Below, piece after piece: positions 9,130 through 63,262 of a stretch of 64,000 nucleotides of DNA. Each line of letters starts with the position of its first letter. Position 1 is the stretch's first letter. A program made the position numbers and the translations under genes. Source of the stretch: Paraburkholderia sp. FT54. Its GTDB lineage: Bacteria; Pseudomonadota; Gammaproteobacteria; Burkholderiales; Burkholderiaceae. Location: the NCBI RefSeq assembly GCF_031585635.1, contig NZ_CP134195.1, forward strand, positions 2,232,001 to 2,296,000, in the 5' to 3' direction. Below the pieces are notes generated by a model. That model had not been told where the DNA came from. It did not search any database and saw only the letters and a program-made list of their open reading frames with translations.

Positions 9130-9282
9130 CGCAGCGCGGAGTCCGGCGCGTTGCCGGCCGGCGTCTGCTCACACGTGCGCGCGCCGGCCGCGACACCCTT
9201 CATCCAGCTTGCGAACCGGTTGCCCCGACGGTTCGCACCGCGCCCTTATTCTCCGCTCATTTTCCGACTTCCCGACCAGATA

Positions 9283-9813: not shown

Positions 9814-9814
9814 C

Positions 9815-10129: not shown

Positions 10130-10140
10130 GAAAATTTTCG

Positions 10141-10920: not shown

Positions 10921-11005
10921 GCGGGTTTTGCCGCTTCAAGATTGCGCTTCGGTTTAATGCTTCGGTTTAGCGCTTTTCTTGATCAGCGGTCTTCGCTTCT
11001 GCGCC

Positions 11006-11044
11006 AAGGCGCTGTTCAGTCAATGATTGAACAGCGCCTTTTTC
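11006..11044 (+). terminator. rho-independent terminator after the PPIase gene
   Basis: A perfect 13-bp stem (AAGGCGCTGTTCA at 11006-11018, its complement at 11028-11040) with a 9-base loop is followed by a T run on the plus strand. It ends the selO/msrB/yciB/bolA/PPIase direction, 86 bp downstream of the last stop codon. Confidence 0.92.
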
Positions 11045-11087
11045 ATGCGGGATCGAACCTGTCTGGCGAAACCGAGGCGTTCATCTC

Positions 11088-12380
11088 TCACTTGCGCAAA
11101 GCGCGGCTCATCTCCGCAAGCGGCATCGCGACAATCGAGTCGAGCAGCCGCACTTCGCCGGCATTCGGCTGTGCGATCCGCTCGACGCCGCGCCGGGTTT
11201 CCGCCACGCGGACGTCGAGCGTGGCCAGCATGTCGTCCAGCAACTTTTCCGAGCCTTTCGACGAGAGACGAAGCGCTTCGCCAAATGCGAGCATGTTCTT
11301 TCTGGATATCTGCGCGAACTGCGTGGCGTCCCCTACGGGCATGGTCAGATCGCAGTGCGGCCAACGGTCCCGCTGCTGCGGCTGGTAGGTCGGCGTGTGG
11401 TAGACGACCGTACTGACCAGATCGTAAAACGGCGCCAGCATGTAGCCGCGAGGGCTGACGAAGAACGAGAGATTTTTCAGATGTGAGTCGGCGTTGCCGA
11501 TCAGCACATTGAAGATCGCCCATCGGAATACATCGAGACGCGCCACTGCCCGCGTACTCGTTTTCTCGATAGCGTCCCTGAGTACCTGCGCCGTCGCGTT
11601 CTGGTATTTGAAGCTGCGGTCGTAGTTCAACAGTTGCATGGCGTCGACGGTATGCAGCCGCCGGGCCGGCTCGCCGCTCGTGTCACGGTCGAATCGATCG
11701 ATCAGGTAGCAGGCCGAAGGCACACGCATAAAATGCGTAGGCGGTACGCGCACACCCATCGCACGCGCCAACCGCATGCAGAAAAACTCGTTGATCGCCG
11801 AATGCGGATAGCCGGTGCTTCGCATGTCGGGCTTGAGCAGATGCATGGACGGTTCACTGCCCACGGGCTCCAGGAGTTCGTACTCCGGCGCGTCGCCGCG
11901 CAAGGTCAGGAGCAGCTTCTGTTGGGCGCCCGCCGCGGACATGCGCTTAGGCGCCGTGGCAGTGAGCGCATGCTGCGGCATCGCCTGTATGCGAGCCTCC
12001 AGATTCGCGTTCGACAAAGGCTGCAGGCCGCCAGGCGCCTCCCGCTCGCCCTCGGCAAGCAGCGTCAGGGCGCCAGCCGATTCCCGGCCGTAGTAGGCCA
12101 GCAAACCCCACGCATCGCTCGCATCGACTTTGGCCTCGCGGGCGAGCGCGCTGCGCATTTCCTCTTCAGGCAGGAGGTTGTCGAAGAACCATTGCACCGG
12201 CCGCTGGCTCGAGCCGTCGATGAAAGGCTGGGGATCCAGCGGGAAAGCAGGTGACAGCGCGAACGCATCTTCATGACCGAGCCAGTCCTTGTCGTAGGTG
12301 AATGACCAGACGCCGCTGTCATCGCTCACGATGCCCACGCGCCGGCCGTTCGCATAAGCGACGAGCGTTCTAGCCGCCAT
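11088..12380 (-). CDS. hipA: HipA-like serine/threonine kinase toxin
   Basis: The 430-residue protein is a full-length HipA-family kinase. Family toxins phosphorylate aminoacyl-tRNA synthetases (GltX in E. coli) and induce dormancy. An N-terminal couple_hipA domain spans about 1-110. The kinase core has the autophosphorylation loop with Ser148 in MSAAGAQQK, a nucleotide segment LKPDMRSTGYPHSAINEFF, catalytic Asp298, His300 and Asn303 in GNADSHLKN, and metal-binding Asp320 in FYDLVST. All key residues look intact, so the toxin is probably active. Its ATG overlaps the end of hipB by 11 bp, so toxin translation depends on antitoxin translation. The kinase target cannot be read here. Confidence 0.93.
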   Translation of the reverse strand: MAARTLVAYANGRRVGIVSDDSGVWSFTYDKDWLGHEDAFALSPAFPLDPQPFIDGSSQRPVQWFFDNLLPEEEMRSALAREAKVDASDAWGLLAYYGRESAGALTLLAEGEREAPGGLQPLSNANLEARIQAMPQHALTATAPKRMSAAGAQQKLLLTLRGDAPEYELLEPVGSEPSMHLLKPDMRSTGYPHSAINEFFCMRLARAMGVRVPPTHFMRVPSACYLIDRFDRDTSGEPARRLHTVDAMQLLNYDRSFKYQNATAQVLRDAIEKTSTRAVARLDVFRWAIFNVLIGNADSHLKNLSFFVSPRGYMLAPFYDLVSTVVYHTPTYQPQQRDRWPHCDLTMPVGDATQFAQISRKNMLAFGEALRLSSKGSEKLLDDMLATLDVRVAETRRGVERIAQPNAGEVRLLDSIVAMPLAEMSRALRK

Positions 12381-12657
12381 GGGGATTCCGCCTGCGATGG
12401 AGCGCCTTGGTGGTCACGGCCGCGGGAATATCTACGGAAACTTGCGCCCGCAGAGCAATGCCCAGTTCGCTGAGGAGATGCAGTACCTTGCCGATCTGGG
12501 CGGTCGGTTTGCCCGCCTCGATGTGCGTGATGAACTTGGGGGACAGGCCCGTCGCGATGGCGACGTCGTCACGCGTCAATCCTTGTGCGAGCCTCGATGC
12601 CCGCACAAGATCGCCTAACTCCATCATATTGCCGATGAGAACGTTGGATTCCGGCAC
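12370..12657 (-). CDS. hipB: HipB-like antitoxin, XRE-family DNA-binding protein
   Basis: The roughly 95-residue protein carries an XRE helix-turn-helix (LGDLVRASRLAQGLTRDD, then ATGLSPKFITHIEAGKPTA), as in HipB, which neutralises HipA and represses the operon. The start is uncertain: GTG at 12655-12657 has an AGGGGGA ribosome site just upstream and is chosen; ATGs at 12627 and 12624 lack one and would give an 84-85-residue protein. The basic tail HRRRNPHGG overlaps the hipA start. Four palindromic operator copies lie directly upstream. Confidence 0.88.
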   Translation of the reverse strand: MPESNVLIGNMMELGDLVRASRLAQGLTRDDVAIATGLSPKFITHIEAGKPTAQIGKVLHLLSELGIALRAQVSVDIPAAVTTKALHRRRNPHGG

Positions 12658-12676
12658 TCTTCCCCCTGTGTCCGTT

Positions 12677-12847
12677 CGTACCCGCTCGGGAACATTATGC
12701 CACGAGACAGAACGGCAGACGCTATTTCGTACCCGAGCAGGTACGAAATGGCGAATTGGCTCTTTATATGCGGGGTTTCGTACCCGATCGGGTACGAAGG
12801 AATGAACAAATTGGAAATATCGCGGTTGACGTACCCGAGCGGATACG
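12677..12847. promoter_or_regulatory. four phased HipB-type operators upstream of hipBA
   Basis: The motif CGTACCCGNNCGGGTACG occurs four times at 12677-12694, 12728-12745, 12779-12796 and 12830-12847, each exactly 51 bp from the next. Copy 3 extends to a perfect 22-bp palindrome (12777-12798); copy 2 has perfect 10-bp arms ATTTCGTACC/GGTACGAAAT around six bases (12724-12749); copies 1 and 4 each have one degenerate arm. A TATAAA on the minus strand at 12763-12768, between copies 2 and 3, could be the hipBA -10 box, putting its -35 region inside copy 3. E. coli HipB also uses four operators, with the different core TATCCN8GGATA. Confidence 0.88.
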
Positions 12848-12990
12848 AAAAAGATGCCGTCTATCTGGGTCATCGCCCTGAGACGGACCGGCGCGTTTGC
12901 CGTCCACGCTCCTTCCGCGTCACACGGCCCTGTGGCCGCAGCACGGCAAGGCTGCCGCGCGCGAACTGCACGGCAGCCTGTCTCACACCA

Positions 12991-15900
12991 TCACCCCAAC
13001 CAGCGACGCGCGTTCTGGAACACGCGCATCCAGGGGCTGGCGTCCGTGCCGCCTTCGCCCCAACCTTCCGGATGCCAGCTCATCTGCACCGCGCGATGCA
13101 CGCGCTCCGTATGCGGCATCAGCACCGTGAAGCGGCCGTCCGGCGTCGTCACCGACGTGATGCCGTTGGGCGAACCGTTCGGGTTGAACGGATATTGCTC
13201 GGTCGCCTGACCACGGTGATCGACATAACGCATCGCCACGGCGACCTTCGACGCATCGCCTTGCTGCGAGAAGTCCGCGTAGCCTTCGCCGTGCGCGATC
13301 GCCACCGGAATGCGCGAGCCTTCCATGCCGTTGAAGAAGAGCGACGGTGAAGCCTGCACTTCGACCAGCGAGAAGCGCGCTTCGAACTTCTCCGACTTGT
13401 TGCGCGTGAACTTCGGCCAGGCTTCGGCGCCCGGAATCATCGAGGCAAGGCTGCTCATCATCTGGCAGCCGTTGCAGATGCCGAGCGCGAACGTGTCTTC
13501 GCGGCCGAAGAACGCGGCGAACATGTCGGCCAGTTGCGAGTTGAAGCGCATCGCCTTCGCCCAGCCTTCGCCGGCGCCCAGCGTATCGCCGTACGAGAAA
13601 CCGCCGCACGCCACCGCGCCGGCGAAATCCGCGAGGTTCGCGCGGCCGGCCAGCAGGTCGCTCATGTGAACGTCGTGCGCGTCGAAGCCGGCGCGGTCGA
13701 ATGCATAGGCTGTTTCAAGGTGCGAGTTGACGCCCTGCTCGCGCAGGATCGCGACGCGCGGACGCGCGCTCCCGCCGATGAACGGCGCCGCGACGTCGTG
13801 CGCCGGATCGAACGTCAACACAGGCGTGATGCCCGGATCGGCCGCGTCGGACAGCGCGTCGTATTCGGCGTCGGCGCAAGCGGGGTTGTCGCGCAGACGC
13901 GCGATACGCCAGCTCACTTCGCTCCACGTACGATGCAATTCGGTGCGCGGCGCTTCATAGATCTTCTTGGCGTCGCGATAGATTTCGATCGTGTCGCGCT
14001 CGTTGAGCTTGCCGATCACATGCGAGCACGCCGACAACCCATGCTCGCGCAACGCTCCGAGCACCGCGTCGCGCTCAGACGCGCGCACCTGAACGACGGC
14101 GCCGAGTTCTTCGGTGAAAAGCGCGCGGATCGTGCGATCTTCACGGCGGCCGCTGGTCTGCTTCGCCCAGTCCTTGGCGTCGCCGTAATCGGATTCATGG
14201 TTCGGATCGAGCACCAGCATGTCGACGTTCAACGACACGCCGACGTGCCCCGCGAACGCCATTTCGCACACGGTCGCCCACAGGCCGCCGTCGGAACGGT
14301 CGTGATAAGCGAGCAGCTTGCCGTCCTGATTCAGTGCCTGGATCGCGGTGAAGAAACGCTTGAGGTCTTCCGGATCTTCCACGTCCGGCACCGTGTCGCC
14401 GACCTGCTGCGTGACCTGCGCGAGAATACTGCCGCCCAGACGATGCTTGCCGCGGCCGAGATCGATCGCGATCAGCACGGACTCGCCCACGTCGCTGACG
14501 CGACGCAGTTGCGGCGTGAGGTGGCGGCGCACGTCCTGAACCGGCGCGAACGCCGAGATGATCAGCGAGACTGGCGCGACCACTTCCTTCGCGACGCCGC
14601 GATCTTCCCACTTGGTGCGCATGGACAGCGAATCCTTGCCGACTGGAATGCTGATGCCGAGCGCCGGGCACAACTCCATGCCGATCGCCTTGACCGTGTC
14701 GTAGAGCGCGGCGTCTTCGCCCGCTGCGCCGCAAGCGGCCATCCAGTTCGCCGACAGCTTGAGCTTGTCGAGCGACGCGATCGGCGCCGCCGCAATGTTG
14801 GTCACGGCCTCGCCGACCGCCATGCGGCCCGACGCCGGTGCGTCGATCACGGCGAGCGGCGTGCGCTCGGCCATGGTCATCGCCTCACCGGTGAAGCCCG
14901 CGTAGTCCATGGTGGTGATCGCGACGTCGGCCACCGGCACTTGCCACGGGCCGACCATCTGGTCACGCGCGGTCGTGCCGCCCACCGAGCGGTCGCCGAT
15001 CGTGATCAGGAACGACTTGCTCGCCACCGTGGGATGACGTAGCACGCTGGTCGCCACATCCGCGAGCGCAATGCCGGTCACATCCACCGGTTCGAGCTTC
15101 TGCTCGACGCGTTTGACGTCGCGATGCATGCGCGGCGCCTTGCCGAGCAGCACTTCCATCGGCATGTCGACCGGCTGGTGCGCAGTGTCGTCGTTCAGTT
15201 CGGAGTCGATCAGCTTGAGCTGGCGCGCGGCGGTGGCCGTGCCGATCACCGCGAACGGGCAGCGCTCGCGCTCGCACATGGCGGCGAAGGCCGGCAGATC
15301 GGCCGGCGCGATGGCCAGCACGTAGCGCTCTTGCGCCTCGTTCGACCAGATTTCGCGCGGCGACAAACCGCTTTCTTCCAGTTGGATCTTGCGCAGATCG
15401 AACAGCGCGCCCTTGCCGGCGCCGTCGACCACTTCCGGGAAGGCGTTCGACAGACCGCCCGCGCCCACGTCGTGAATGCTCAGAATCGGATTCTTTTCAC
15501 CAAGCTGCCAGCACGCGTTGATGACCTCCTGCGCACGGCGTTCGATTTCCGGGTTGCCGCGTTGAACCGAATCGAAGTCGAGTTCAGCGGTGTTGGTGCC
15601 GGTCGCCATCGAGCTTGCCGCGCCGCCGCCCATGCCGATGCGCATGCCTGGACCGCCGATCTGGATCAGCAGCGAGCCTTCCGGCAGATCGTGCTTATGC
15701 GTGTGCTGGTCCGAGATATTGCCGATGCCGCCGGCGATCATGATCGGCTTGTGATAACCGCGCACCAGGCCCGCGACATTCTGCTCGTAAGCGCGGAAAT
15801 AGCCGCCCAGGTTGGGCCGGCCGAATTCGTTGTTGAACGCGGCACCGCCGAGCGGGCCGTCGATCATGATCTGCAGCGGCGAAGCGATCCGATCGGGCCG

Positions 15901-49077: not shown

Positions 49078-50040
49078 TCAAAGCCTGTCTCCTCCCGCCT
49101 CGGCCCGCGACCGCCCTCGTCCTGCCGCGCTGCGCGCCGGCGCCACGACCTCTGCGAGCAGTTCCTCGTGCAGCCCGCGCAAGACTTCGACGAACGCCGA
49201 CGCCAGCCGCTCTCGCGGCCTGTGCGGAGGAAACAGCAGATAGGTCTGAAAACGCGTGGCCGGCAGGAACGGGCGAATCGCGATATCCGGCCCGGCGAAG
49301 TCGCGCGCGACGATCGGGTGCGCGAGCGTCACGCCCATGCCGTGGCGAACCATCTCGCAGCACATCGCGGTGTATTGCGCCTCGATCGCCATGACGCGCT
49401 GCACGCCCGCGCGCTGGAACACCTCGTCCATCAAGGTGCGCGTGCCGTCACCGTGACACAGCGAAATGAACGACTCGCCCTCCAGGTCCTCCGGCTTGAT
49501 GTTGCGCTTCTTCGCCAGCCGATGCGATGCCGGCATCACGCAAACCGCAGCCACGTCCGCTAGCTGTTCGACCTCGCAATCGGACGCCTCGCTGACATAT
49601 ACCGCCACGCCGAGATCGCAAAACTGCGACGCGGTCCAATGATTGACCGTGCCCGACGTATTCACGTGCAGCGACACGGTGACATCAGGAAACAGCTCGA
49701 CAAAACGTTTGATGGCGTGCGGCACCAACGTCATGCCCGCCGAAGGCATCGCCGCGATGCGTAGACGCCCGCTGCCGAGATTGCGAATCTGCGCCGCGGC
49801 ATTCGCCAACCCTTGCAAGCCGACAAAGGCGCGTTCGACTTCGCGAAAGAACGCCTCACCCTCGCTCGTTGGAATCAGCCGCACGCCGCTGCGCTGAAAG
49901 AGTTGCAGCCCCGTGTCGCGCTCGAGTTGCGCGATCAGACGGCTCACGTTCGGCTGCGACGTGAAGAGCGCCTTGGCCGCGGCGGTCATCGACCCCGACA
50001 CCATCACCGCGCGGAACGCCTCGATGTGCTTGAGATTCAT
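49078..50040 (-). CDS. LysR-family regulator (OccR/NocR-like)
   Basis: The 320-residue protein has the LysR DNA-binding domain (MNLKHIEAFRAVMVSGSMTA, then QPNVSRLIAQLERD) and an effector domain. The opening and the neighbouring genes resemble octopine/nopaline catabolism regulators. It is divergent from the ABC importer operon across 158 bp that hold the inverted repeat at 50083-50098, so it most likely activates that operon in response to the transported compound. Confidence 0.9.
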   Translation of the reverse strand: MNLKHIEAFRAVMVSGSMTAAAKALFTSQPNVSRLIAQLERDTGLQLFQRSGVRLIPTSEGEAFFREVERAFVGLQGLANAAAQIRNLGSGRLRIAAMPSAGMTLVPHAIKRFVELFPDVTVSLHVNTSGTVNHWTASQFCDLGVAVYVSEASDCEVEQLADVAAVCVMPASHRLAKKRNIKPEDLEGESFISLCHGDGTRTLMDEVFQRAGVQRVMAIEAQYTAMCCEMVRHGMGVTLAHPIVARDFAGPDIAIRPFLPATRFQTYLLFPPHRPRERLASAFVEVLRGLHEELLAEVVAPARSAAGRGRSRAEAGGDRL

Positions 50041-50082
50041 CCGTATTCTCCCTTAGACGACGCCCTTCAACCCATATCATCC

Positions 50083-50098
50083 ATACATAGATAGGTAT
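50083..50098. promoter_or_regulatory. candidate LysR site for the catabolic operon
   Basis: ATAC (50083-50086) and GTAT (50095-50098) form an inverted repeat with an 8-bp spacer in an AT-rich stretch between the divergent LysR and binding-protein genes, a layout seen at OccR/NocR-type sites. Confidence 0.45.
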
Positions 50099-50198
50099 TT
50101 TATTCGTATTGGACGACATGACCAGCCAGCGCGACACTGCATTCTAACGACGGGCAGCGAAGCCCGCCTCCCCCACACCGGTACTGGAGATCGTCGTC

Positions 50199-51266
50199 AT
50201 GAGAAGAGCGCTGCATCGCCGCCTGTCCGCCCCGTCCCACACCGCCGTCGCTGCGCTTATATGCGCTTGCGCCGTGGCCGCTCCGCGCTTCGCGCAGGCC
50301 GAGACAACGCTCTATGTCGCCAACGTCGGCGGCTCGAACGAGCAGATCTACCGGCAGAAAATCATCCCGCCGTTCGAGAAAGCGCATAACGTCAAGATCG
50401 TTTACGTCGCCGGCAATTCGAGCGATACGCTCGCCAAGCTGCAGGCGCAGAAAGGCCATCAGCAGATCAACGTCGCGGTGATGGACGACGGTCCCATGTA
50501 CCAGGCGATGCAGCTCAACCTGTGCGCGAAGCTCGACGACGCGCCCGTGATGAAAGACGTCTACCCGCTCGCGAAGCTCGGGCCGAGCGCGATCGGCGTC
50601 GGCATGGTGGCCACGGGCATCGGCTACAACGAAGAGGCGTTCAAGAAGGCCGGCCTGCCGCCGCCCGACTCGTGGAAGGCGCTCACCGACAGCCGCATCA
50701 AGGGCAAACTCGGTGTGCCGCCGATCACCAACACCTACGGCCTGCATACGCTCGTAATGCTCGCGCGGCTTTCCGGCGGCGGCGAGAAGAACATCGATCC
50801 GGGCTTTGCCGCGATGACGAAGCAAGTCGCGCCGAACGTGCTGTCGTGGGCGCCGACACCCGGCGAGATGGACGGCCAGATGCAGTCCGGCGACGTGATC
50901 CTCGCGCCGTATGGCAGCGGCCGGGCGGTGGCCTTGCAGAACACGGGCTTCCCGCTCAAGTTCATCTACCCGAAGGAAGGCGCGGTCGCGTTGCAGGTGG
51001 CGGCCTGCGCGGTCGCAGAGAACGCCCAGCCGCAGTTGTCGCAGCAGTTCGTGCAGTACCTGTTGAGCCCGGAAGTACAGATATTGCAGGCGCAAGGCAT
51101 CGGACTGGGTCCGGTCAACAAGACCGTCAGGCTCACGCCCGACATCGCCGCACGCGTGCCCTATGGTCCCGAACAGGTCTCGAAGCTGACCGCGATGGAC
51201 TGGGCCACGATCAACCAGCATCGGACCGAATGGACCGAACGCTGGAACCGTTCGGTGGAACGCTGA
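50199..51266 (+). CDS. ABC importer substrate-binding protein, spermidine/putrescine-like
   Basis: The 355-residue precursor has a signal peptide (AVAALICACAVAAPRFAQA) and a type II periplasmic-binding fold like PotD or AfuA-type proteins: TLYVANVGGSNEQIYRQKII near the start, GIGYNEEAFKKAGLPPPDSW in the middle. It captures the substrate for the transporter encoded by the next three genes. It is the first gene of the operon and follows the LysR site. Confidence 0.9.
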   Translation: MRRALHRRLSAPSHTAVAALICACAVAAPRFAQAETTLYVANVGGSNEQIYRQKIIPPFEKAHNVKIVYVAGNSSDTLAKLQAQKGHQQINVAVMDDGPMYQAMQLNLCAKLDDAPVMKDVYPLAKLGPSAIGVGMVATGIGYNEEAFKKAGLPPPDSWKALTDSRIKGKLGVPPITNTYGLHTLVMLARLSGGGEKNIDPGFAAMTKQVAPNVLSWAPTPGEMDGQMQSGDVILAPYGSGRAVALQNTGFPLKFIYPKEGAVALQVAACAVAENAQPQLSQQFVQYLLSPEVQILQAQGIGLGPVNKTVRLTPDIAARVPYGPEQVSKLTAMDWATINQHRTEWTERWNRSVER

Positions 51267-51323
51267 AGTGCGGCACCAGCAGGTTCCTCGCGCGGCGCGC
51301 GATCTGATGAAGGAGCGAGGCGC

Positions 51324-52403
51324 ATGGCCTTCCTGACTCTGCAAGGCATCTCGAAACGCTACGGCGATTTCACGGCGGTCGATCAACTCGATCTTGCCGT
51401 CGAACGCGGCGAACTGCTCTCGCTGCTCGGACCCTCCGGATGCGGCAAGACCACCACGCTGCAAATGGTCGCGGGCTTCGTCACGCCGACCACGGGCCGC
51501 ATTCTGCTCGATGGCCGCGACATCACTTACGAGCGTCCTGAGAAGCGCGGCATCGGCGTGGTGTTCCAGAGTTATGCGCTGTTTCCGCACATGACGGTGG
51601 CGGGCAACGTCGGCTTCGGGCTGGAGATGCGCAAGGTCAGGCGCAAGGAGCGCGACGAGCGCGTCGCCGAAGCGCTTTCCCTCGTGCGTCTGAAAGGCCT
51701 CGGGCACCGCTATCCGAAGGAACTGTCCGGCGGCCAGCGGCAGCGTGTGGCGATCGCGCGCGCCATCGCGATGCAGCCGGAACTGCTGCTGCTCGACGAA
51801 CCGATGTCCAATCTCGACGCCAAGCTGCGCGAAGAGATGCACATCGAATTGCGCGCGATCCAGAAGCGCCTCGGCATCACGACGATTCTCGTCACGCACG
51901 ATCAGGTCGAAGCGATGACCATGAGCGACCGCATCGCGGTGATGCATCGCGGCGCCATTGCGCAACTCAGCACGCCGTATGACGCGTACGAGCGTCCCGC
52001 CACGCCGTTCGCCTCGACGTTCCTCGGGCGCACCAACGCGTTTTCCGGCGAAGTGCTGCGGCGCAATCCGCGCTGCGCGGAAGTCGCCGTCGCCGGCACG
52101 ACGCTGCATGTGCCCCACGAAGGCCGTCATGTCGACGGCACGGTGAACGTCTATATCCGTCCGGAAAAGGTTCATCTGGCCAATGGCGATGCCCGCCTGC
52201 GCGGCCGCATCGCGACGCGTGTCTTCGTCGGCAATCAGTGGCTGCTCGAAGTGGACACCGAACTCGGCAAGCTGCGCGTCGCGCAACCGAACCACGGCGC
52301 ACCGCCGCCCGAGGAAGGCCACGAAGTCGGCCTCGCGTGGACCGACGACGATCTGCGCGTGCTCACGCAGGATAATCCGGAGAGCGCTCATGGCCACGCT
52401 TGA
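51324..52403 (+). CDS. ABC importer ATP-binding protein, PotA-like
   Basis: The 359-residue ATPase has Walker A GPSGCGKTTT, signature LSGGQRQRVAIARA, Walker B LLLLDEPMSNLD, the H-loop VTHDQ, and a C-terminal TOBE region from about 270. This is the PotA/CUT1-like class. It starts 57 bp after the binding-protein gene, and its stop overlaps the next permease start by 14 bp. Confidence 0.93.
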   Translation: MAFLTLQGISKRYGDFTAVDQLDLAVERGELLSLLGPSGCGKTTTLQMVAGFVTPTTGRILLDGRDITYERPEKRGIGVVFQSYALFPHMTVAGNVGFGLEMRKVRRKERDERVAEALSLVRLKGLGHRYPKELSGGQRQRVAIARAIAMQPELLLLDEPMSNLDAKLREEMHIELRAIQKRLGITTILVTHDQVEAMTMSDRIAVMHRGAIAQLSTPYDAYERPATPFASTFLGRTNAFSGEVLRRNPRCAEVAVAGTTLHVPHEGRHVDGTVNVYIRPEKVHLANGDARLRGRIATRVFVGNQWLLEVDTELGKLRVAQPNHGAPPPEEGHEVGLAWTDDDLRVLTQDNPESAHGHA

Positions 52404-53262
52404 CGACGCCCGTCCCGGCGCCGCGCCGTGGCTGCTGTCGGGGCCCGCGCTGCTGCTGTTCGTCGGCTTGCTGTTAGTGCCGCTGCTGCTCACGCTGATG
52501 CTGTCGTTCCGCGTCTTCAGCGATACGGCGGGCGTGACCGCCGCCTATACGCTCGCGAACTACTGGGAAGTCGTCAGCGACCCGTACTACGGCACGATCT
52601 TCCTGCGCACCGCCGGCCTCGCCTTCGCCGTCACGCTGCTGTGCATCGTGCTCGGCGTGCCGGAGACCATCGTGCTCGCGCGCATGAAGCGTCCGTGGCA
52701 GTCGCTGTGTCTGTTGGTCGTGCTCGGCCCGCTGCTCATCTCCGTGGTGGTGCGCACGCTCGGCTGGCAGATTCTGCTCGGCAACAACGGCGTGCTGAAC
52801 AACCTGCTGCAGGCACTGCACGTCACCGACGAACCCATCCGCCTCGTCTTCACGATGACCGGCATGATCATCGCCCTTACGCACGTGCTGGTGCCCTTCA
52901 TGGTGATGTCGGTGTGGGCGACCATGCAGAAGCTCGACCCGCAGGTGGAATGGGCCGGCCGCTCGCTCGGCGGCTCGCCGTTCGCGGTGTTTCGCCGCGT
53001 GGTCCTGCCGCAGATCATGCCGGGCGTGCTGTCGGGTTCGATCATCGTGTTCGCCTTGTCGGCATCGGCGTTCGCCACGCCGGCGCTGATCGGCGGCAGG
53101 CGCCTCAAGGTGGTCGCCACCGCCGCCTACGACGAGTTCCTCGGCACGCTCAACTGGCCGCTCGGCGCGAGCATCGCCGTGCTGCTGCTGATCGCCAACG
53201 TGGCGATCGTGATGGGTTGCAGCCGCCTCGCCGAACGCCGCTTCAAGCACATCTTCGATTGA
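52390..53262 (+). CDS. ABC importer permease, PotB-like
   Basis: The 290-residue membrane protein has about six helices and the EAA loop (EWAGRSLGGSPFAVFRRVVLP). Start: ATG at 52390 inside the end of the ATPase gene gives the typical N terminus; the frame is open earlier. It pairs with the following permease to form the channel. Confidence 0.92.
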   Translation: MATLDDARPGAAPWLLSGPALLLFVGLLLVPLLLTLMLSFRVFSDTAGVTAAYTLANYWEVVSDPYYGTIFLRTAGLAFAVTLLCIVLGVPETIVLARMKRPWQSLCLLVVLGPLLISVVVRTLGWQILLGNNGVLNNLLQALHVTDEPIRLVFTMTGMIIALTHVLVPFMVMSVWATMQKLDPQVEWAGRSLGGSPFAVFRRVVLPQIMPGVLSGSIIVFALSASAFATPALIGGRRLKVVATAAYDEFLGTLNWPLGASIAVLLLIANVAIVMGCSRLAERRFKHIFD

Positions 53263-53278
53263 GCCACGGAGAGCGATC

Positions 53279-54076
53279 ATGAAACAGAACGGCATTCTCG
53301 GCCTCGTCTACAACGCGTTCTTTCTGACCTTCATCCTCGCGCCGCTCGCGGTGGTGATGCTGGTGGCGTTCACCGACAAGGGCTTCATCTCGATGCCCTT
53401 CGATGGCGCGTCGCTGCGCTGGTTCCGCGCGATCATCGAGAACGGCGACATTGTCGCGGCCTTCTGGCTGTCGGTGCGGCTCGCGTTCGCCGCGGCGAGC
53501 ATCGGCGTGCTGCTCGCGGTGCCCGCCGCGCTGGCGATCGCGCGCTATCGCTTCCCGGGCCGCGCCGCGCTCACGAGCTTCTTCCTCTCGCCGATGATGA
53601 TTCCCGCGGTCGTGCTCGGCATCGCGTTCCTGCGCTTTCTGTCGCTGCTGCATCTGTCGGGATCGTTCTGGTCGCTGGTCTGCGCGCACGTCGTCATCGT
53701 GCTGCCGTATGCGTTGCGGCTCGCGCTGTCGTCGGCGGCCGGGCTCGATCGCGATGCCGAACGCGCCGCGCTCTCCTGTGGCGCGAGCCGCTTCACCGCG
53801 TTTCGCCGCGTGGTCCTGCCGATGATCCGCACCGGTGTGGCGGGCGGCTGGGTGCTCTCGTTCATCCAGAGTTTCGACGAACTGACCATGACCATCTTCG
53901 TCGCGACGCCCGGCACGACCACGCTGCCCGTCGCCATGTACAACCAGATCGCGCAGACGATCGATCCGCTGGTCGCTTCGGTGTCGGCGGTGCTGATCGT
54001 CGGCACGGTCCTCCTGATGATCCTGCTCGACCGCATGGTCGGACTGGATCGCATTCTGATCGGAGAAACCCGATGA
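53279..54076 (+). CDS. ABC importer permease, PotC-like
   Basis: The 265-residue membrane protein has six predicted helices and the EAA loop (DAERAALSCGASRFTAFRRVVLP). It follows the first permease by 16 bp with a CGGAGAG ribosome site. Its stop overlaps the start of the FAD oxidoreductase by 4 bp, directly linking uptake and oxidation genes. Confidence 0.92.
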   Translation: MKQNGILGLVYNAFFLTFILAPLAVVMLVAFTDKGFISMPFDGASLRWFRAIIENGDIVAAFWLSVRLAFAAASIGVLLAVPAALAIARYRFPGRAALTSFFLSPMMIPAVVLGIAFLRFLSLLHLSGSFWSLVCAHVVIVLPYALRLALSSAAGLDRDAERAALSCGASRFTAFRRVVLPMIRTGVAGGWVLSFIQSFDELTMTIFVATPGTTTLPVAMYNQIAQTIDPLVASVSAVLIVGTVLLMILLDRMVGLDRILIGETR

Positions 54077-55221
54077 CATTGATAAGCAGCGCCAGCCCCA
54101 ACGTCCTGGCGGATGTGGTGGTCGTGGGCGGCGGCCTCGTTGGTTCGGCCGTGGCCTACGGGCTCGCCCGCGAAGGCGCGCGCGTGACCGTACTCGACGA
54201 GGACGACGGCGGCTTTCGCGCATCGCGCGGCAATTTCGGCCTCGTCTGGATTCAGGGCAAGGGCTATGGCCTGTCGCCTTATGCACGCTGGTCGCGCAGT
54301 TCGGCCACGCGCTGGCCGGGACTCGCGCAAGCGCTCCTGAAGGAAACGGGCGTGGACGTCGCGTTGCGTCAGCCAGGCGGCTTTCACTTCTGCTTCAACG
54401 ACAACGAACTCGCCGAACGCGAGAAACGCCTCTCGACGCTGCAAGCCGAGCTCGGCGATTACCCGTACCAGATGCTCGATGCCGCCGAAGTCCGCGAACG
54501 CATTCCGCAAATCGGCCCTGCGGTGATCGGCGCGAGCTATTCGCCGATGGACGGTCACGTGAATCCGCTCAAGCTCCTGCGCGGCCTGCATACCGCCATG
54601 CAGGCGCGAGGCGTGCGGCTCGTGTCGGGCGAACGCGCGGAGCGCATCGAACCGCAAGCGCAGAGCTTCGTCGTGCACGGAAAGCGCGGGACGTATCGCG
54701 CGGCGCGCGTCGTGCTCGCCGCGGGGCTCGGCAATCGTTCGCTCGCGCCGTTTGTGGGACTCGACGCACCGGTCGCGCCGAATCGCGGGCAGGTGCTGGT
54801 GAGCGAGCGCGTCGCGCGGTTTCTCGACTATCCGACGCTCAACGTGCGCCAGACCGACGAAGGCAGCGTGCAGTTCGGCGATTCGATGGAGGAAGTCGGC
54901 TTCGACGATTTCACCACCACGCACGTGCTTGCCGACATCGCCCGGCGCGGTGTGCGCGCGTTCCCGATGTTGCAGCACGTGCGGCTCGTGCGCATGTGGG
55001 CCGCGTTGCGTGTCTACAGCCCCGACGGCTTTCCGATCTACGACCACTCCGAGGCGCACCCCGGCGCGTTCGTCGTCACCTGCCATAGCGGCGTGACGCT
55101 GGCGGCCGCGCATGCGCTGCGCGTCGCGCCGTGGATCATGGGCGCGCCGATGCCCGAGGAACTGCCCCATTTCTCCGCGCGCCGCTTCGAGCATGCCGGC
55201 GAACTGATTCACGCTCATTGA
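54073..55221 (+). CDS. FAD-dependent amine/imino-acid oxidase subunit (OoxB/HcnC-like)
   Basis: The 382-residue DAO-family flavoprotein has the FAD fold DVVVVGGGLVGSAVAYGLA, followed by a DED acidic end, and a C-terminal FAD contact VVTCHSGVTLAAAHAL. In opine oxidases, HcnABC and D-hydroxyproline dehydrogenase, such a subunit carries the active site and works with a [2Fe-2S] subunit and a second flavoprotein; the next two genes encode exactly these. The GNFGLVWIQGKGYGLSPYA segment likely lines the active site. Start ATG overlaps the permease stop. Confidence 0.87.
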   Translation: MTLISSASPNVLADVVVVGGGLVGSAVAYGLAREGARVTVLDEDDGGFRASRGNFGLVWIQGKGYGLSPYARWSRSSATRWPGLAQALLKETGVDVALRQPGGFHFCFNDNELAEREKRLSTLQAELGDYPYQMLDAAEVRERIPQIGPAVIGASYSPMDGHVNPLKLLRGLHTAMQARGVRLVSGERAERIEPQAQSFVVHGKRGTYRAARVVLAAGLGNRSLAPFVGLDAPVAPNRGQVLVSERVARFLDYPTLNVRQTDEGSVQFGDSMEEVGFDDFTTTHVLADIARRGVRAFPMLQHVRLVRMWAALRVYSPDGFPIYDHSEAHPGAFVVTCHSGVTLAAAHALRVAPWIMGAPMPEELPHFSARRFEHAGELIHAH

Positions 55222-55228
55222 ATTCGAC

Positions 55229-55609
55229 ATGACTACCCAATCGACTCACACGCTTTTCAAGCCACTGCCGGGCGCGCAAGGCGCGGCCGCCACGCATGTC
55301 GGCATCTGGTTCAACGATCAGCCGCTGTCCGTGCCGGGCGGCTGCTCCGTCGCGGCCGCCCTGCTCGGCGCGGGGATATCGCGCTTTCGCGCGACGCCCG
55401 TGTCCGGCGCAGCGCGCGCGCCCTTCTGCATGATGGGCGCGTGCTTCGAATGCCTCGTCGAGATCGACGGCATGCCGAGCCGCCAGGCCTGCATGGTCGA
55501 AGTCAAAGCCGGCATGCGCATCCGCTCGCAGGAAGGCGCGCGCGATCTGCCGCCCTTCGGCACGGCTGGCATCACCGACGCACCGCTGGAGAACGCCCAT
55601 GACCGCTGA
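55229..55609 (+). CDS. [2Fe-2S] ferredoxin-like subunit of the amine dehydrogenase
   Basis: The 126-residue protein has a ferredoxin-like beta-grasp fold with cluster ligands Cys67, Cys72 and Cys75 (FCMMGACFEC) and Cys88, the pattern of HcnA, OoxX or the gamma subunit of D-hydroxyproline dehydrogenase. It would relay electrons between the two flavin subunits. Its end overlaps the next gene start by 11 bp. Confidence 0.88.
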   Translation: MTTQSTHTLFKPLPGAQGAAATHVGIWFNDQPLSVPGGCSVAAALLGAGISRFRATPVSGAARAPFCMMGACFECLVEIDGMPSRQACMVEVKAGMRIRSQEGARDLPPFGTAGITDAPLENAHDR

Positions 55610-57005
55610 TTTCGCTTCGCAAGCCGTCGACGTCGTCGTAGTCGGCGCCGGACCCGCCGGCATGAGCGCGGCGACGCGCGCGGCGCGCGCCGGCCTCACG
55701 ACCGTGCTGATCGACGAACAGGACGCCGTGGGCGGCCAGATCTATCGCGCCATCGGCCGCGCCGATGCGCGCCGCAAGGAGATTCTCGGGCCGGACTACG
55801 CGGCGGGCGCCGCCGTCGCCGAAGCATTCGCCGCCTCCGGCGCGCGCCACCTGACGAATGCGAGCGTGTGGCAGGTCACGCGCGAGCGCGGCGTCAATTA
55901 TTTGCAGGACGGCAAGATCGGCAGCTTCGACGCGCAGCGCGTGATTCTCGCCAGCGGCGCGCTGGAGCGGCCCTTTCCGATTCCCGGCTGGACGCTGCCC
56001 GGCGTGCTGACGGCGGGCGCGGCGCAGATCCTGTTGAAGAGCGCGGGCGAAGTGCCCGCCGCGCCGCCGGTGCTCGCGGGCTGCGGACCGCTGCTGTATC
56101 TGCTCGGCTGGCAATACGTGCGTGCCGGCGTGCCGATCCGCGCGCTGGTCGATACCACGCGTCACGAAGACCGCTGGCGCGCGAAGCGCCATATGCTGGC
56201 GGCGCTGCGCGCGTGGCCGTTCCTGAGCAAAGGCTTGCAACTGATCCGCACGCTGCGCGAAGCGAAGGTGCCGATCTTCGAGGCGGCGGACGATCTGCGC
56301 GTGGAAGCGCGCATCGGCACGGATCACGTCGAGCGCGCCGCCGCGCTGCACTTCACGACGCAAGGCACGGCGCATCGTCTCGAAGCCGATGTGATCCTGC
56401 TGCATCAAGGCGTCGTGCCGAACACGCAATTCACGCAGGCGCTGCGCGCCGCGCACCGCTGGGACAATGCGCAACTGTGCTTCACCCCGAAAGTCGATGC
56501 GTGGGGCGAGCTGGACGTGCCCGGCATCTTCGTCGCGGGCGATGGCGCGGGCATCGGCGGCGCGCAGGCGGCAGCCTTGCAGGGCACGCTCGCGGGCCTC
56601 GCGGCGGCCGCGCAGTTGGGCGCGATCACGTCCGCGGCGCGCGATGCCGAAGCCGTCGCGCAGCGTCGCGCGCTCGCGGACGTCATGCGCATCCGGCCTT
56701 TTCTCGACGCCCTTTATCGTCCGCGCGACATCAACCGCATTCCGCGCGACGAGACCGTCGTGTGCCGGTGCGAGGAAGTCACCGCGGGCGAATTGCGCAA
56801 GTTCGTCGAGCTCGGCTGTGTCGGACCGAATCAGGCGAAGTCGTTCGGGCGCTGCGGCATGGGCCCGTGTCAGGGACGCATGTGCGGTCTCACGGTGACG
56901 GAAGTGATCGCCGATGCGCGCCGTGTCTCGCCCGCCGAAGTCGGCTATTACCGCATCCGTCCGCCGATCAAGCCGCTCACGCTCGGAGAACTCGCCGGTG
57001 AATGA
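55599..57005 (+). CDS. NAD(P)/FAD-type dehydrogenase subunit with C-terminal BFD-like Fe-S domain (OoxA/HcnB-like)
   Basis: The 468-residue flavoprotein begins with DVVVVGAGPAGMSAATRAARAG and an FAD-type second motif FVAGDGAGIGGAQAA. The C-terminal domain has Cys389 and Cys391 in VVCRCEEV and Cys419 and Cys424 in GRCGMGPCQG, the bacterioferritin-associated-ferredoxin pattern. This is the alpha-type subunit of opine oxidase or D-hydroxyproline dehydrogenase complexes. The three genes 54073-57005 thus form a complete heteromeric enzyme. Confidence 0.87.
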   Translation: MTADFASQAVDVVVVGAGPAGMSAATRAARAGLTTVLIDEQDAVGGQIYRAIGRADARRKEILGPDYAAGAAVAEAFAASGARHLTNASVWQVTRERGVNYLQDGKIGSFDAQRVILASGALERPFPIPGWTLPGVLTAGAAQILLKSAGEVPAAPPVLAGCGPLLYLLGWQYVRAGVPIRALVDTTRHEDRWRAKRHMLAALRAWPFLSKGLQLIRTLREAKVPIFEAADDLRVEARIGTDHVERAAALHFTTQGTAHRLEADVILLHQGVVPNTQFTQALRAAHRWDNAQLCFTPKVDAWGELDVPGIFVAGDGAGIGGAQAAALQGTLAGLAAAAQLGAITSAARDAEAVAQRRALADVMRIRPFLDALYRPRDINRIPRDETVVCRCEEVTAGELRKFVELGCVGPNQAKSFGRCGMGPCQGRMCGLTVTEVIADARRVSPAEVGYYRIRPPIKPLTLGELAGE

Positions 57006-58182
57006 CACGACCGGCATCCACGAAGCCGATGTCCTCGTGGTCGGCGGCGGGCTGCATGGCACGAGCAGCGCGTTCCACCTGGCGCGGCGCGGCGCGAAGG
57101 TGATCGTGCTCGAAGCCGATTATGTCGCGCGTCATTCGTCGGGCGTGAACGCGGGCGGCGTGCGCACGCTGGGCCGTCCGTTGGCGGAGATTCCGCTCGC
57201 GCTGATGTCGCGGGAAATCTGGCACGGCATGAGCGAGCTGCTCGGCGAGAATGGCGGCTTCGTTGCGTCCGGTCAGTTGAAGATCGCGGAAACGGATGAT
57301 GAACTCGAAGCGTGCCGCCAACGCGTCGCGCTGCTCGAATCGCATGGATTCACCCACGAGAAAGTGATCGACCGCGACACCGTGCTCGAACTCGAACCGG
57401 CGCTCGCGCGCCATGTCACCGGCGGCATCTGGGTCGAACGCGACGGCTACGCGCTGCCTTATCGAACCACGACGGCGTTCCGCCTCGCCGCGCAGCGGCT
57501 CGGCGTGCGTTTTCAGGAAGGCACGCCGGTGCGCCGCATCGAGCAGCGCGGCACCCGATGGTTCGCGCTCACGCCGCATGGCACGTTCAGCGCGAACCAG
57601 TTGCTCGTCACCGCGGGCGCATGGTCCGGTGAATTGGCGAAGCAGGTCGGCGAGCCCGTGCCGGTGCGTCCCGAAGGTTTGATGCTGATGGTTACGCACC
57701 GCGTCGCGCCCTTCTGTCGTGCGACGCTCGGCGCAACGGGCCGGCCGTTGTCCTTCAAGCAGTTCGACAACGGCACGGTGGTGATCGGCGGCAAACTGAT
57801 CGGCATTGCGGATCTGGCGAATCGTCACGGCGAAGTCGATTTCGTGCGCCTCGTGCGCAGCGCACGCACCGTGACCGATCTGTTTCCTCATCTGCGCAAT
57901 CTCGGCGTCAACCGCGCGTGGGCCGGCGTGGAAGCCTTCACCGACGATGAACTGCCGGTGATTTCCGCGAGCCGCCAGGCGTCGAATCTGTATTACTCGT
58001 TCGGCTATTGCGGCAGCGGCTTTCAGCTCGGGCCGGGTTGCGGCAAGCTCGTGTCCGAACTGATGCTGGACGGCAAGCCCTCGCTTTCGCTCGATGCGTT
58101 TGCCATTGATCGTTTTGGCCGCGCGGCGGCGGCTTCCAGCCTTGGTGCTTCGCATCTCGCTTCGCATCTCGTTACGCACTGA
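56998..58182 (+). CDS. second FAD-dependent oxidoreductase, DAO/sarcosine-oxidase-like
   Basis: The 394-residue protein has ADVLVVGGGLHGTSSAFHLA near the N terminus, HSSGVNAGGVRT, and a C-terminal FAD contact YSFGYCGSGFQLGPGCGKL. It is a paralogue-type relative of the 54073 subunit but clearly different in sequence. The start is GTG at 56998, overlapping the upstream stop by 8 bp with a GGAGA site 10 bases upstream; an ATG at 57002 is out of frame. Two DAO-family oxidases in one operon suggest two successive oxidations or two related substrates. Confidence 0.85.
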   Translation: MNDTTGIHEADVLVVGGGLHGTSSAFHLARRGAKVIVLEADYVARHSSGVNAGGVRTLGRPLAEIPLALMSREIWHGMSELLGENGGFVASGQLKIAETDDELEACRQRVALLESHGFTHEKVIDRDTVLELEPALARHVTGGIWVERDGYALPYRTTTAFRLAAQRLGVRFQEGTPVRRIEQRGTRWFALTPHGTFSANQLLVTAGAWSGELAKQVGEPVPVRPEGLMLMVTHRVAPFCRATLGATGRPLSFKQFDNGTVVIGGKLIGIADLANRHGEVDFVRLVRSARTVTDLFPHLRNLGVNRAWAGVEAFTDDELPVISASRQASNLYYSFGYCGSGFQLGPGCGKLVSELMLDGKPSLSLDAFAIDRFGRAAAASSLGASHLASHLVTH

Positions 58183-58258
58183 CTGATTTTTTCCGCCGCG
58201 CCCTTCAGTCGATGCGCGCGGCGGCTTCGTTCGCCTTTATTCAAATGGAGAGATTGTC

Positions 58259-58612
58259 ATGACCGATATCGTTCGTATCGACACCAACCAGCGTATGAGC
58301 CGCGTTGTCAAAGCCGGCGGCCTCGTGTTCGTCGGCGGCCAGACTTCCGCCGATCACAGCCCGGACGTGAAACTCCAGACCGCCAAGGTGCTGGAGAAGA
58401 TCGACGGCTATCTGGAGAAAGCCGGCATCGACAAGACGCGCCTCGTTTCGGCGCAAGTCTGGCTCGCGGACATTGCCCGCGATTTCGCGGGCATGAACGA
58501 AGTATGGGACGCGTGGATTCCGCAAGGTCATGCACCCGCGCGCGCGACGGTGCAAGCGAAGCTTGCCGCGCCCGAGTTGCTCATCGAAATCGCGGTCGTG
58601 GCGCTGGGTTAA
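58259..58612 (+). CDS. RidA family reactive-intermediate (imine/enamine) deaminase
   Basis: The 117-residue YjgF/RidA-family protein hydrolyses 2-imino acids or enamines formed by flavin oxidases. The family strand pattern (VVKAGGLVFVGGQTSAD) and the C-terminal PARATVQAKLAAPELLIEIAVVAL, with the substrate-binding arginine in ARATV, are present. It lies 76 bp after the second oxidase, fits removal of its imine product and supports the amine-oxidation reading of the operon. Confidence 0.9.
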   Translation: MTDIVRIDTNQRMSRVVKAGGLVFVGGQTSADHSPDVKLQTAKVLEKIDGYLEKAGIDKTRLVSAQVWLADIARDFAGMNEVWDAWIPQGHAPARATVQAKLAAPELLIEIAVVALG

Positions 58613-61552: not shown

Positions 61553-61723
61553 CGGCAGGGAGCGCGCCGCGACGACGGGCAGTAGAATCGCAAGGAGCGC
61601 GTGCGCATTGGCATCGCCAGCCAGGACGCAAGGCGCGGCAGCCAACCGTATCGAGGATTTCTGCAGGAAGGCCCGGCGCGTACCGGCAGGTCACGGACGC
61701 GCCCTTTCTGCCGAGGAGATCTC

Positions 61724-63262
61724 ATGAAGGTACTCGCCGTACATCCCAGTGGCTTGATGTACACCCGCGTGTTCCTGCGACTCGAACCGCTCGGCCTGGA
61801 GACGGTCGCGGCCGTTATCCGCGCGGCTGGACACGAGGTCCGGTTGCTCGACCTGCAAGTGGAATCGCATCGCGATCTGGAGCGGCTGATCCGCAAGTGG
61901 CGTCCTGATGCCGTCTGTTTCTCCGGCAATTACCTCGCCAATATTCCCGAAATCATCGATCTGTCGAAAGCGATCAAGGCGCAGTGGCCCGCCTGCTTCG
62001 TGTTCGTGGGCGGACACAGCGCGTCGTTTACCGCAGCCGATATGCTCAGGCACGCCGAGGGCGCCATCGACTGCGTGCTGAGAGGCGAAGGCGAGGCGAA
62101 GGTCGCCGAACTTCTCGACGCCGTCGCCCGCCAGGCCGATCCGCTGTCGATACCGGGCGTCGTGACCCGCAACGGCGAGGGACCGCTGCCGGGCTTCGCC
62201 GAAAGCCTCGATCAGGTTTGCCCCGCGCGCGATCTGCTGCGACATCGGCGCAAATACTTCATTGGCGTGCTGGATCCGTGTGCGTCGATTGAATTCGCGC
62301 GCGGCTGCCCGTGGGATTGCACGTTCTGCAGCGCATGGACATTCTACGGACGCAGCTATCGTTCACGCAGCCCCACAGTGATCGCCGACGAACTGGCGTC
62401 GATTCGCGAGCCAGGCGTCTTCATCGTCGACGATGTCGCCTTCGTGCATGCGGATCACGGCATGGCGATCGGCCGCGAAATCGAGCGCCGCGGCATACAC
62501 AAAAAGTACTACCTCGAGACACGCGGCGATATGCTGTTGCGCAACAAGGAGGTTTTCGAGTACTGGCGCACGCTGGGCCTGCAATACATGTTTATCGGCA
62601 TGGAGGCGATCGACGCCGAAGGGCTCAAGGCGTTTCGCAAGCGCGTCAATCTCGACAAGAACTTCGAGGCGCTCGCGTTCGCGCGCTCGCTCGGCATCAC
62701 CGTCGCGATCAATCTGATCGCCGATCCCGACTGGGACCATGACCGCTTCGAAGCGATCAGGCAATGGTGTCTGGAGATTCCCGAGATCGTCAACATCAGC
62801 GTGAACACACCTTATCCGGGCACGGAAATCTGGTTGCGCGAGCATCGCCAGTTGACCAGCCTCGACTACCGGCTCTATGACATCCAGCACGCCGTCCTGC
62901 CGACGAAACTGCCCTTGCCCGAGTTCTACCGCGAACTGGTGCGCACGCAACAGGTACTCAACCGCAAGCACCTTGGCTGGCGCGCACTGCGCGGAGCGGC
63001 GAGCGAAGCGGCACATCTGCTGCTGCACGGGCAAACGAACTTCGTGCGAATGCTGTGGCGCTTCAACTCGGTGTTCAATCCGAACCTGCAATTGAACGAC
63101 CACGCGCGCGAAGTCCGGTATTCGATGACGCCGCCTGCCGCATCGGCCGAGCACGCCAATGTCAAGGTACTGTATGTGCACGGGCCGGCGGGACGCAAGG
63201 GCCGCAAGCTCGACGATGCAACGGAAAGTTTCGTCGACGAAACCCGCATGGGTGCGGGCTGA
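61724..63262 (+). CDS. hpnR: B12-binding radical SAM protein, hopanoid C-3 methylase-like
   Basis: The 512-residue protein has an N-terminal B12-binding-like domain (VRLLDLQVESHRDLERLIRK, CFVFVGGHSASFTAADMLRH) and a radical SAM core with CxxxCxxC at Cys195, Cys199 and Cys202 (GCPWDCTFC). The opening MKVLAVHPSGLMYTRVFLRL and the overall layout match my memory of HpnR, which methylates hopanoids at C-3 using cobalamin and SAM. The frame opens at 61601, but ATG at 61724 has a strong GAGGAG site. The usual hopanoid cluster is not in the window, so it stands alone here. Family assignment is by pattern, without a search. Confidence 0.8.
   Translation: MKVLAVHPSGLMYTRVFLRLEPLGLETVAAVIRAAGHEVRLLDLQVESHRDLERLIRKWRPDAVCFSGNYLANIPEIIDLSKAIKAQWPACFVFVGGHSASFTAADMLRHAEGAIDCVLRGEGEAKVAELLDAVARQADPLSIPGVVTRNGEGPLPGFAESLDQVCPARDLLRHRRKYFIGVLDPCASIEFARGCPWDCTFCSAWTFYGRSYRSRSPTVIADELASIREPGVFIVDDVAFVHADHGMAIGREIERRGIHKKYYLETRGDMLLRNKEVFEYWRTLGLQYMFIGMEAIDAEGLKAFRKRVNLDKNFEALAFARSLGITVAINLIADPDWDHDRFEAIRQWCLEIPEIVNISVNTPYPGTEIWLREHRQLTSLDYRLYDIQHAVLPTKLPLPEFYRELVRTQQVLNRKHLGWRALRGAASEAAHLLLHGQTNFVRMLWRFNSVFNPNLQLNDHAREVRYSMTPPAASAEHANVKVLYVHGPAGRKGRKLDDATESFVDETRMGAG

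Follow-up and report, generated by a model that had tools for sequence, protein, structure and literature searches.

Why does one compact gene row carry two DAO-family oxidoreductase genes around a single pair of flavin and iron-sulfur subunits, and what kind of compound would such a row serve? The question is raised by nine genes at positions 50199-58612 of a 64,000-nucleotide stretch (the window) of the 8.65 Mb genome of Paraburkholderia sp. FT54. Judged from sequence comparison, the row probably encodes a system of the OdhB1-C-A-B2 type that takes up and oxidises an opine, to which we assign a probability of about 0.85. The initial annotation had proposed an uptake-plus-oxidation operon, and this proposal was supported by the opine-oxidase layout, the OccR-like LysR regulator and the transporter genes.

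Gene organisation

The nine genes formed one tight row on the same strand, with spacings from -14 to +76 bases, and the LysR gene lay upstream in divergent orientation. This confirmed the earlier description of genes joined by overlaps or small gaps and read divergently from the regulator. From the regulator through the periplasmic binding protein (SBP), the ATPase and the two permeases to the first DAO gene (Ox1), the intervals were 158 (LysR/SBP, divergent), 57 (SBP/ATPase), -14 (ATPase/permease 1), 16 (permease 1/permease 2) and -4 bases (permease 2/Ox1), followed by 7 (Ox1/Fer2), -11 (Fer2/Pyr), -8 (Pyr/Ox2) and 76 bases (Ox2/RidA). The oxidoreductase genes Ox1-Fer2-Pyr-Ox2, overlapping or nearly so, stood in the order beta1-gamma-alpha-beta2. 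The domain scan assigned to the row, in order, SBP_bac_8, ABC_tran with TOBE_2, two BPD_transp_1, DAO, Fer2_4, Pyr_redox_2 with sarcosine-oxidase alpha A3, DAO and Ribonuc_L-PSP, and together with the open reading frames it showed all named genes to be open at the coordinates first given for them. Ox2 most likely starts at the GTG at 56998, which is preceded by GGAG; the first ATG of its open frame, at 56914, lies within Pyr.

No gene of the row was named by a curated model, as none of the NCBIfam matches listed (up to 25 per protein) attained its curated cut-off. The PhnT2/PotA-like ATPase, too, stayed below the cut-off of every family among the matches listed (best 25 of 188). Scans for promoters and terminators were at chance level, with one promoter-like signal against a mean of 0.7 and four terminator-like signals against 6.1.

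Identity of the oxidoreductase subunits

The opine-oxidase layout recognised initially was borne out by BLAST against annotated Ti-plasmid proteins, in which Ox1-Fer2-Pyr proved homologous to OoxB-small subunit-OoxA. Identity was 44% for Ox1 against OoxB (41% against NoxB), 44% for Pyr against OoxA (40% against NoxA) and, over 68 amino acids, 50% for Fer2 against the small protein encoded between ooxB and ooxA. Ox2 was only about 26% identical to OoxB and NoxB; it was closer to the DAO proteins of a Rhizobium rhizogenes Ti-plasmid triad (45%), of pTiBo542 (43.6%) and of a paralogous triad within its own genome (L088, 42%), and to the second one encoded on pTiEU6 (39.6%). In a tree of 113 rows, the beta1 and beta2 groups each formed one side of a branch with a Shimodaira-Hasegawa-like approximate likelihood ratio (SH-aLRT) support of 99, and both included Ti-plasmid members. 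The type-2 references in this test were Ti-plasmid DAO proteins, and the tree was built by a quick method, with some long branches; several long-branched outgroup rows were assigned to the side of Ox2.

Gene linkage pointed in the same direction. Among 299 sampled genomes of the phylum, 20 carried Ox1-like genes (E no higher than 1e-40) and 19 carried Ox2-like genes (E no higher than 1e-55), and in nine genomes, the window's own included, the two lay 2.8-2.9 kb apart from start to start, which is the size of the module. The core order recurred on pTiEU6, in Azospirillum and in Palleronia. Fer2 and Pyr were found behind 21 of 23 Ox1-like places, and 22 of 23 Ox2-like places, Ti-plasmid triads included, were immediately preceded by an alpha gene. 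Since genes of its clade so regularly follow alpha, Ox2 looks like a type-2 beta subunit rather than a separate enzyme, and the simplest reading is that Ox1 and Ox2 are both beta subunits of one shared core. Sarcosine oxidase beta, glycine oxidase and L-proline dehydrogenase beta tied as the nearest matches of the Ox2 structural model; as the tie includes glycine oxidase, the fold alone is no proof of docking to alpha.

The GxGxxG motif near the start of alpha and both beta subunits was present in Pyr, Ox1 and Ox2, as was Arg-X-Trp in both beta subunits. In beta1 (53 rows), Arg307, Trp309 and Arg313 were each at least 90% conserved (Arg-X-Trp at 307-309), and in beta2 (45 rows) the same held for Arg306, Trp308 and Glu312 (Arg-X-Trp at 306-308). 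Arg313 of Ox1 aligned to the Arg of the glycine-oxidase LR motif, which holds the substrate carboxylate. This position is occupied in Ox2 by Glu312 and in the solved L-proline dehydrogenase beta chain by Tyr. Because Glu312 replaces the Arg of Ox1, the active sites of Ox1 and Ox2 are predicted to differ. Fer2 contained C67-X4-C72-X2-C75-X12-C88, which fits the C-X4-C-X2-C-X11-12-C of gamma subunits of opine dehydrogenases (OpnDH), and Cys389, Cys391, Cys424 and Cys429 of Pyr were each at least 90% conserved (73 rows). Arg-X-Trp has been assigned to the FMN (flavin mononucleotide) held between alpha and beta by Watanabe et al. (2015; PMC4575208).

Comparison with known systems

The closest precedent in gene order is OdhB1-C-A-B2 of Bradyrhizobium japonicum (bll7193, bll7192, bll7191 and bll7190), purified by Watanabe et al. 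(PMC4575208). There, each beta subunit assembles separately with common alpha and gamma subunits into one of two octopine dehydrogenases, of which the B1 form is poorly active; alpha and gamma prefer B2, and no complex with both beta subunits was found. Compared by gene order and description, that system and ours share the same arrangement, with a beta1 of the Oox/Nox type and a beta2 of a distant type. In the same study, OdhB-C-A of Pseudomonas putida is an alpha4beta4gamma4 nopaline dehydrogenase with FAD (flavin adenine dinucleotide), FMN and [2Fe-2S], which reduces dyes and cytochrome c and not oxygen. An octopine oxidase operon is also known from a soil Pseudomonas (PMC4432341).

Similar rows occur on plasmids. 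The four genes recur as sacE-F-G-H on the succinamopine plasmid pTiEU6, for which the authors consider two complexes likely and place a Pot-type transporter and an mmgE gene in the sac region (PMC6733357). In our comparison, LysR, DAO1 (41%), Fer2, Pyr (43%) and DAO2 (40%) likewise stood there in one row, whereas the transporter directly following was of another type, RidA was missing and octopine/nopaline dehydrogenase-family genes lay downstream. The vitopine-type plasmid pTiS4 likewise has LysR, SBP (46%), ATPase, two permeases, an Ox1-like gene, Fer2 and Pyr; in contrast to the window, its stretch lacks Ox2 and RidA, and traR comes next. The occ operon of the octopine plasmid (NC_002377) shares OccR (39.5%), OoxB (44%), OoxA (44%) and a RidA-family gene behind ooxA, but has the transporter annotated occQMPT, a single beta and ocd. 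On pTiBo542, lecF-G-H (names from PMC6733357) is likewise a Fer2-Pyr-DAO triad, its DAO protein being 43.6% identical to Ox2, but the stretch lacks beta1 and has another transporter. In the initial annotation, the transporter of polyamine type and the extra oxidase were held not to fit textbook versions. Neither point stood, as beta1-gamma-alpha-beta2 was purified from B. japonicum and described on pTiEU6, and the transporter has precedents on pTiS4 and in other genomes. The transporter class and the second oxidase are thus already known features.

Beyond the plasmids, five genomes of one genus (f41 g82) encoded relatives of both beta subunits, at 44-49% identity to Ox1 and Ox2. One locus of this genus (L171) matched the window in all ten genes and their arrangement, the beta2 alignment spanning just 283 residues; another (L172) gave no RidA match.

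Conservation of the ten-gene block

Eighty named loci were recruited via Ox2 (best 80 of 118), which makes the set uninformative on how often Ox2 is absent. By this criterion, the closest named relatives were Paraburkholderia and Caballeronia (best 80 of 118), and 24 of 58 sampled genomes of the genus carried a close Ox2 (E up to 1e-150). The order and strand pattern of LysR-SBP-ATPase-permease-permease-Ox1-Fer2-Pyr-Ox2-RidA were kept in 68 of the 80 loci, and in 65 of 70 loci of at least 20 kb. For three flanking genes the counts were 0 of 80 (MFS), 2 of 80 (MBL) and 2 of 80 (TetR), and the ten-gene block is therefore conserved beyond chance. The 68 include one locus with split or shortened matches (L053) and one with a split SBP match (L001). 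Also among them is L070, from an uncultured Paraburkholderia symbiont, in which several operon genes are broken into pieces.

Twelve loci did not conform. Five were cut by contig ends (L037, L066, L067, L078 and L080), L067 additionally having no RidA match; in L077, LysR adjoined a partial Ox2 and the intervening genes were missing. RidA was not found in L057 and L074, and neither Ox1 nor RidA in L058. In Pusillimonas (L072 and L073), Ox2 lay outside the operon on the opposite strand, and apparently likewise in L068, where the contig ends.

Within the LysR-SBP gap, about 50 bases (50072-50120) were strongly conserved in Burkholderiaceae and partly in two Pseudomonas (27 of 73 extracted intergenic regions aligned). 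This block is a possible operator for the OccR-like regulator.

Close to the operon itself, Burkholderia multivorans has a second opine-type triad just upstream (L086, 1-2421), and B. pseudomultivorans shows a second alpha gene at the locus edge (L060, from 1).

Gain, loss and relocation of beta subunits

The alpha tree comprised 69 rows labelled by beta content (26 beta1, 25 both, 18 beta2), labels that hinge on the beta E-value limits (1e-40 and 1e-55) and on the ends of short loci. On this tree the label 'both' took 10 changes, at least 8 of them forced by supported branches, against 20.6 with shuffled labels. Either beta can stand alone with the core, as seen in L058 without Ox1 and in the Pusillimonas loci with Ox2 outside the operon. 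In L058, from Robbsia andropogonis, beta1 is gone and about 75 bases (8047-8121, aligned ends) separate permease 2 from gamma, followed by alpha and beta2; another Ox1-like gene (56%) lies on a different contig of that genome. This state fits a route of acquisition followed by loss of OdhB1, as proposed by Watanabe et al. (PMC4575208).

Regulator, transporter and RidA

The regulator had initially been called OccR/NocR-like. The first part held, with 39.5% identity to OccR of the octopine Ti plasmid over 258 amino acids; the likeness to NocR was weak (25% over 225 amino acids).

The transporter consists of SBP_bac_8 and PotABC-like proteins, unlike the OccQMPT/NocQMPT type of the textbook occ/noc operon. 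Pot-type transporters with parts 45-63% identical to those of the window adjoined the core on pTiS4 before traR, in Azospirillum, in Palleronia and in L171-L174; in L173 all ten genes were present, with LysR in line and not divergent. On an Agrobacterium fabrum plasmid, a Pot-type transporter likewise lay beside the core, with the SBP gene apart. The AlphaFold2 model of SBP had a mean predicted local distance difference test (pLDDT) score of 87.5, and its top structural matches were 4edp and 3pu5, entries naming no ligand. The next relatives were receptors for gamma-aminobutyric acid, hexose phosphates, mannopine, glucopine, agropinic acid and polyamines, and a putative 2-aminoethylphosphonate receptor. 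With relatives of such varied ligands, the SBP fold therefore does not name the ligand. Polyamine uptake was rejected as the default reading, since no polyamine model among those listed passed its cut-off and the SBP relatives bind varied ligands.

RidA followed beta2 in the 68 conserved loci and alpha in five plasmid regions without Ox2, and a RidA-family gene is annotated (RefSeq) behind ooxA on the octopine plasmid. Its best solved relatives were PSPTO_0102 and PA5083. By analogy with its family, RidA may act in imine hydrolysis.

A related core in Oceanisphaera (L085, 10289-19456) has a TRAP transporter and lies near phosphonate C-P lyase genes.

Proposed function and alternatives

In the proposed system, LysR would sense an opine and activate the divergent promoter, and SBP, the ATPase and the two permeases would import the opine. 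As shown for the B. japonicum homologue, alpha and gamma would form a common core for electron transfer, to which either beta1 or beta2 attaches, the outcome being two alternative dehydrogenases and not one four-part enzyme. Each would oxidise the C-N bond of an N-carboxyalkyl amino acid to yield an amino acid and a 2-oxo acid, conceivably via an imine hydrolysed by RidA. Electrons would pass through FAD, FMN and [2Fe-2S] to the respiratory chain, in line with the P. putida homologue, which contains these cofactors and reduces cytochrome c. More tentatively, and with the odds rather against it, the two enzyme forms on one alpha-gamma core might be specialised for two opines, or might carry out two successive oxidations of one opine as yet undescribed from soil or rhizosphere; RidA would remove the imine.

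A number of observations weigh against the opine reading. The substrate of the plasmid relatives, octopine included, is not transferable, because identity to them is about 40-56%, and the operon lacks a downstream amino-acid gene such as ocd or arginase. Octopine_DH (PF02317) was unmatched in the genome itself, but it was also unmatched in 14 control genomes, so that its absence is not established. The [2Fe-2S] spacing of Pyr is C-X-C-X32-C-X4-C, against the X15-20 printed in PMC4575208. Linkage had its exceptions: two of the 23 Ox1-like places (L115 and L116) lacked Fer2 and Pyr behind, one of the 23 Ox2-like places (L153) lacked alpha in front, Ox2 was apart from alpha in L072, L073 and the contig-end L068, and RidA was not found behind Ox2 in L057, L058, L067, L074, L172 and L174. 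Finally, related cores are accompanied by various transporters (TRAP, TTT-type, His-type and Pot-type) and have MmgE/PrpD-family, enolase-family, amidase, aspartate ammonia-lyase and amino-acid racemase genes nearby, so that the substrate range of the family may extend past crown-gall opines. That the compound is an undescribed one, as suggested initially, is conceivable. The same neighbours, together with the OCD-family gene ahead of gamma-alpha-beta2-RidA in L155, speak for enzymes that apply the same chemistry to a secondary amine other than an opine, for instance an N-substituted aspartate or a different N-alkyl amino acid. We regard this as unlikely, as those neighbour genes are absent from the window operon and the nearest relatives with published activity (PMC4575208) use octopine or nopaline.

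The remaining alternatives divide the operon differently or assign it another substrate. DguA-DguB of Pseudomonas provides a D-amino-acid dehydrogenase step and a model for Ox2 and RidA as a separate pair, oxidising the amino acid released by Ox1-Fer2-Pyr. The two genes are adjacent, RidA is closest to PSPTO_0102 and to PA5083, which we take to be DguB, and Ox2 is apart from alpha in L072 and L073. This division is nevertheless improbable in view of the 22 of 23 places at which the Ox2 clade directly follows alpha, the presence of RidA directly behind alpha where Ox2 is missing and behind ooxA on the octopine Ti plasmid, and the Glu312 of Ox2 where glycine oxidases and Ox1 have Arg. Moreover, BjOdhB2 assembles with OdhA and OdhC (PMC4575208). 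A D-hydroxyproline dehydrogenase operon would have the same subunit layout, and a proline-racemase-family gene (G000:C1:2299210-2300178) is indeed present outside the window on this contig, about 8.6 kb downstream of RidA. However, the domain scan found no proline-racemase-family or DHDPS gene in the window operon, while another triad of the genome (DAO at C2:932444, Fer2 at C2:933576; its alpha matches 31-35% identical to Pyr, its beta 26% to Ox2) adjoins a proline-racemase-family gene (C2:931506-932429) and a DHDPS gene. Because this separate triad with such neighbours exists in the same genome, D-hydroxyproline appears an unlikely substrate, and an operon dedicated to it very unlikely. Fer2-Pyr-Ox2 also matches the gamma-alpha-beta order of hcnABC, but the uptake system, the second beta and the Ti-plasmid members of the clade leave an HcnABC-type hydrogen cyanide synthase scarcely credible.

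On the opine reading, the subunit-exchange opine dehydrogenase, described earlier from Bradyrhizobium and a Ti plasmid (PMC4575208 and PMC6733357), is now seen as a conserved operon in further genera, namely Paraburkholderia, Caballeronia, Burkholderia, Trinickia, Cupriavidus, Variovorax and Pseudomonas. Many soil bacteria beyond Agrobacterium may thus use opine-type compounds. The loci add natural cases in which one catalytic subunit was lost or moved and the rest of the operon was kept.

Features and neighbouring sequences

Table 1. Coordinates of the regulator, the intergenic block and the nine genes of the row in the window.
Feature	Position	Strand	Evidence
LysR-type regulator, OccR-like, divergent	49078..50040	-	HTH_1, LysR_substrate; 39.5% OccR over 258 aa
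Conserved intergenic block, candidate LysR operator/promoter	50072..50120	.	alignment of intergenic regions; putative function
Periplasmic binding protein (SBP)	50199..51266	+	SBP_bac_8; 46% to pTiS4 operon SBP
ABC transporter ATPase	51324..52403	+	ABC_tran, TOBE_2; PhnT2/PotA-like
Permease 1, PotB-like	52390..53262	+	start ATG 52390
Permease 2, PotC-like	53279..54076	+	domain/family scans
Ox1, putative beta1 subunit, OpnDH type 1, OdhB1/OoxB/NoxB-like	54073..55221	+	44% OoxB, 41% NoxB; beta1 tree side
Fer2, putative gamma subunit, [2Fe-2S], OdhC-like	55229..55609	+	Fer2_4, E 1.4e-25
Pyr, putative alpha subunit, FAD and BFD-type [2Fe-2S], OdhA/OoxA-like	55599..57005	+	Pyr_redox_2, SO_alpha_A3; 44% OoxA
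Ox2, putative beta2 subunit, OpnDH type 2, OdhB2/LecH/SacH-like, probable GTG start	56998..58182	+	beta2 tree side; identity to Ti-plasmid DAO proteins
RidA-family protein, imine deaminase by family	58259..58612	+	Ribonuc_L-PSP

Related gene sets were seen elsewhere. In a second opine-type row of the same genome (L088, G000:C1:479001-499000, 7229-15021), gamma-alpha-beta2 is accompanied by permeases of the amino-acid type and a binding protein with an SBP_bac_3 domain; the LysR of this row is 33% identical to that of the window. Small genomes of one genus (G009, G025, G040 and G044) have gamma-alpha-beta2-RidA (L155, 5084-9487), preceded in G044 by an OCD/mu-crystallin-family gene.

Past the window end lies a hydroxyproline-type set (L093, G000:C1:2293000-2306000, from near window position 63300) with the proline-racemase-family gene at C1:2299210-2300178, a DAO gene at C1:2301495-2302670 and other members named by eye. 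Homologues of its genes (>45% identity) occurred near the operon in 3 of the 80 named loci (seven matches in L057, four in L001 and one in L002), a comparison that covers the near part, as the named loci extend about 10 kb past Ox2; the set was not adopted as part of the system. Between the operon and this set, a 553-codon open frame (61601-63262) resembles, by eye, a cobalamin-binding radical SAM protein.

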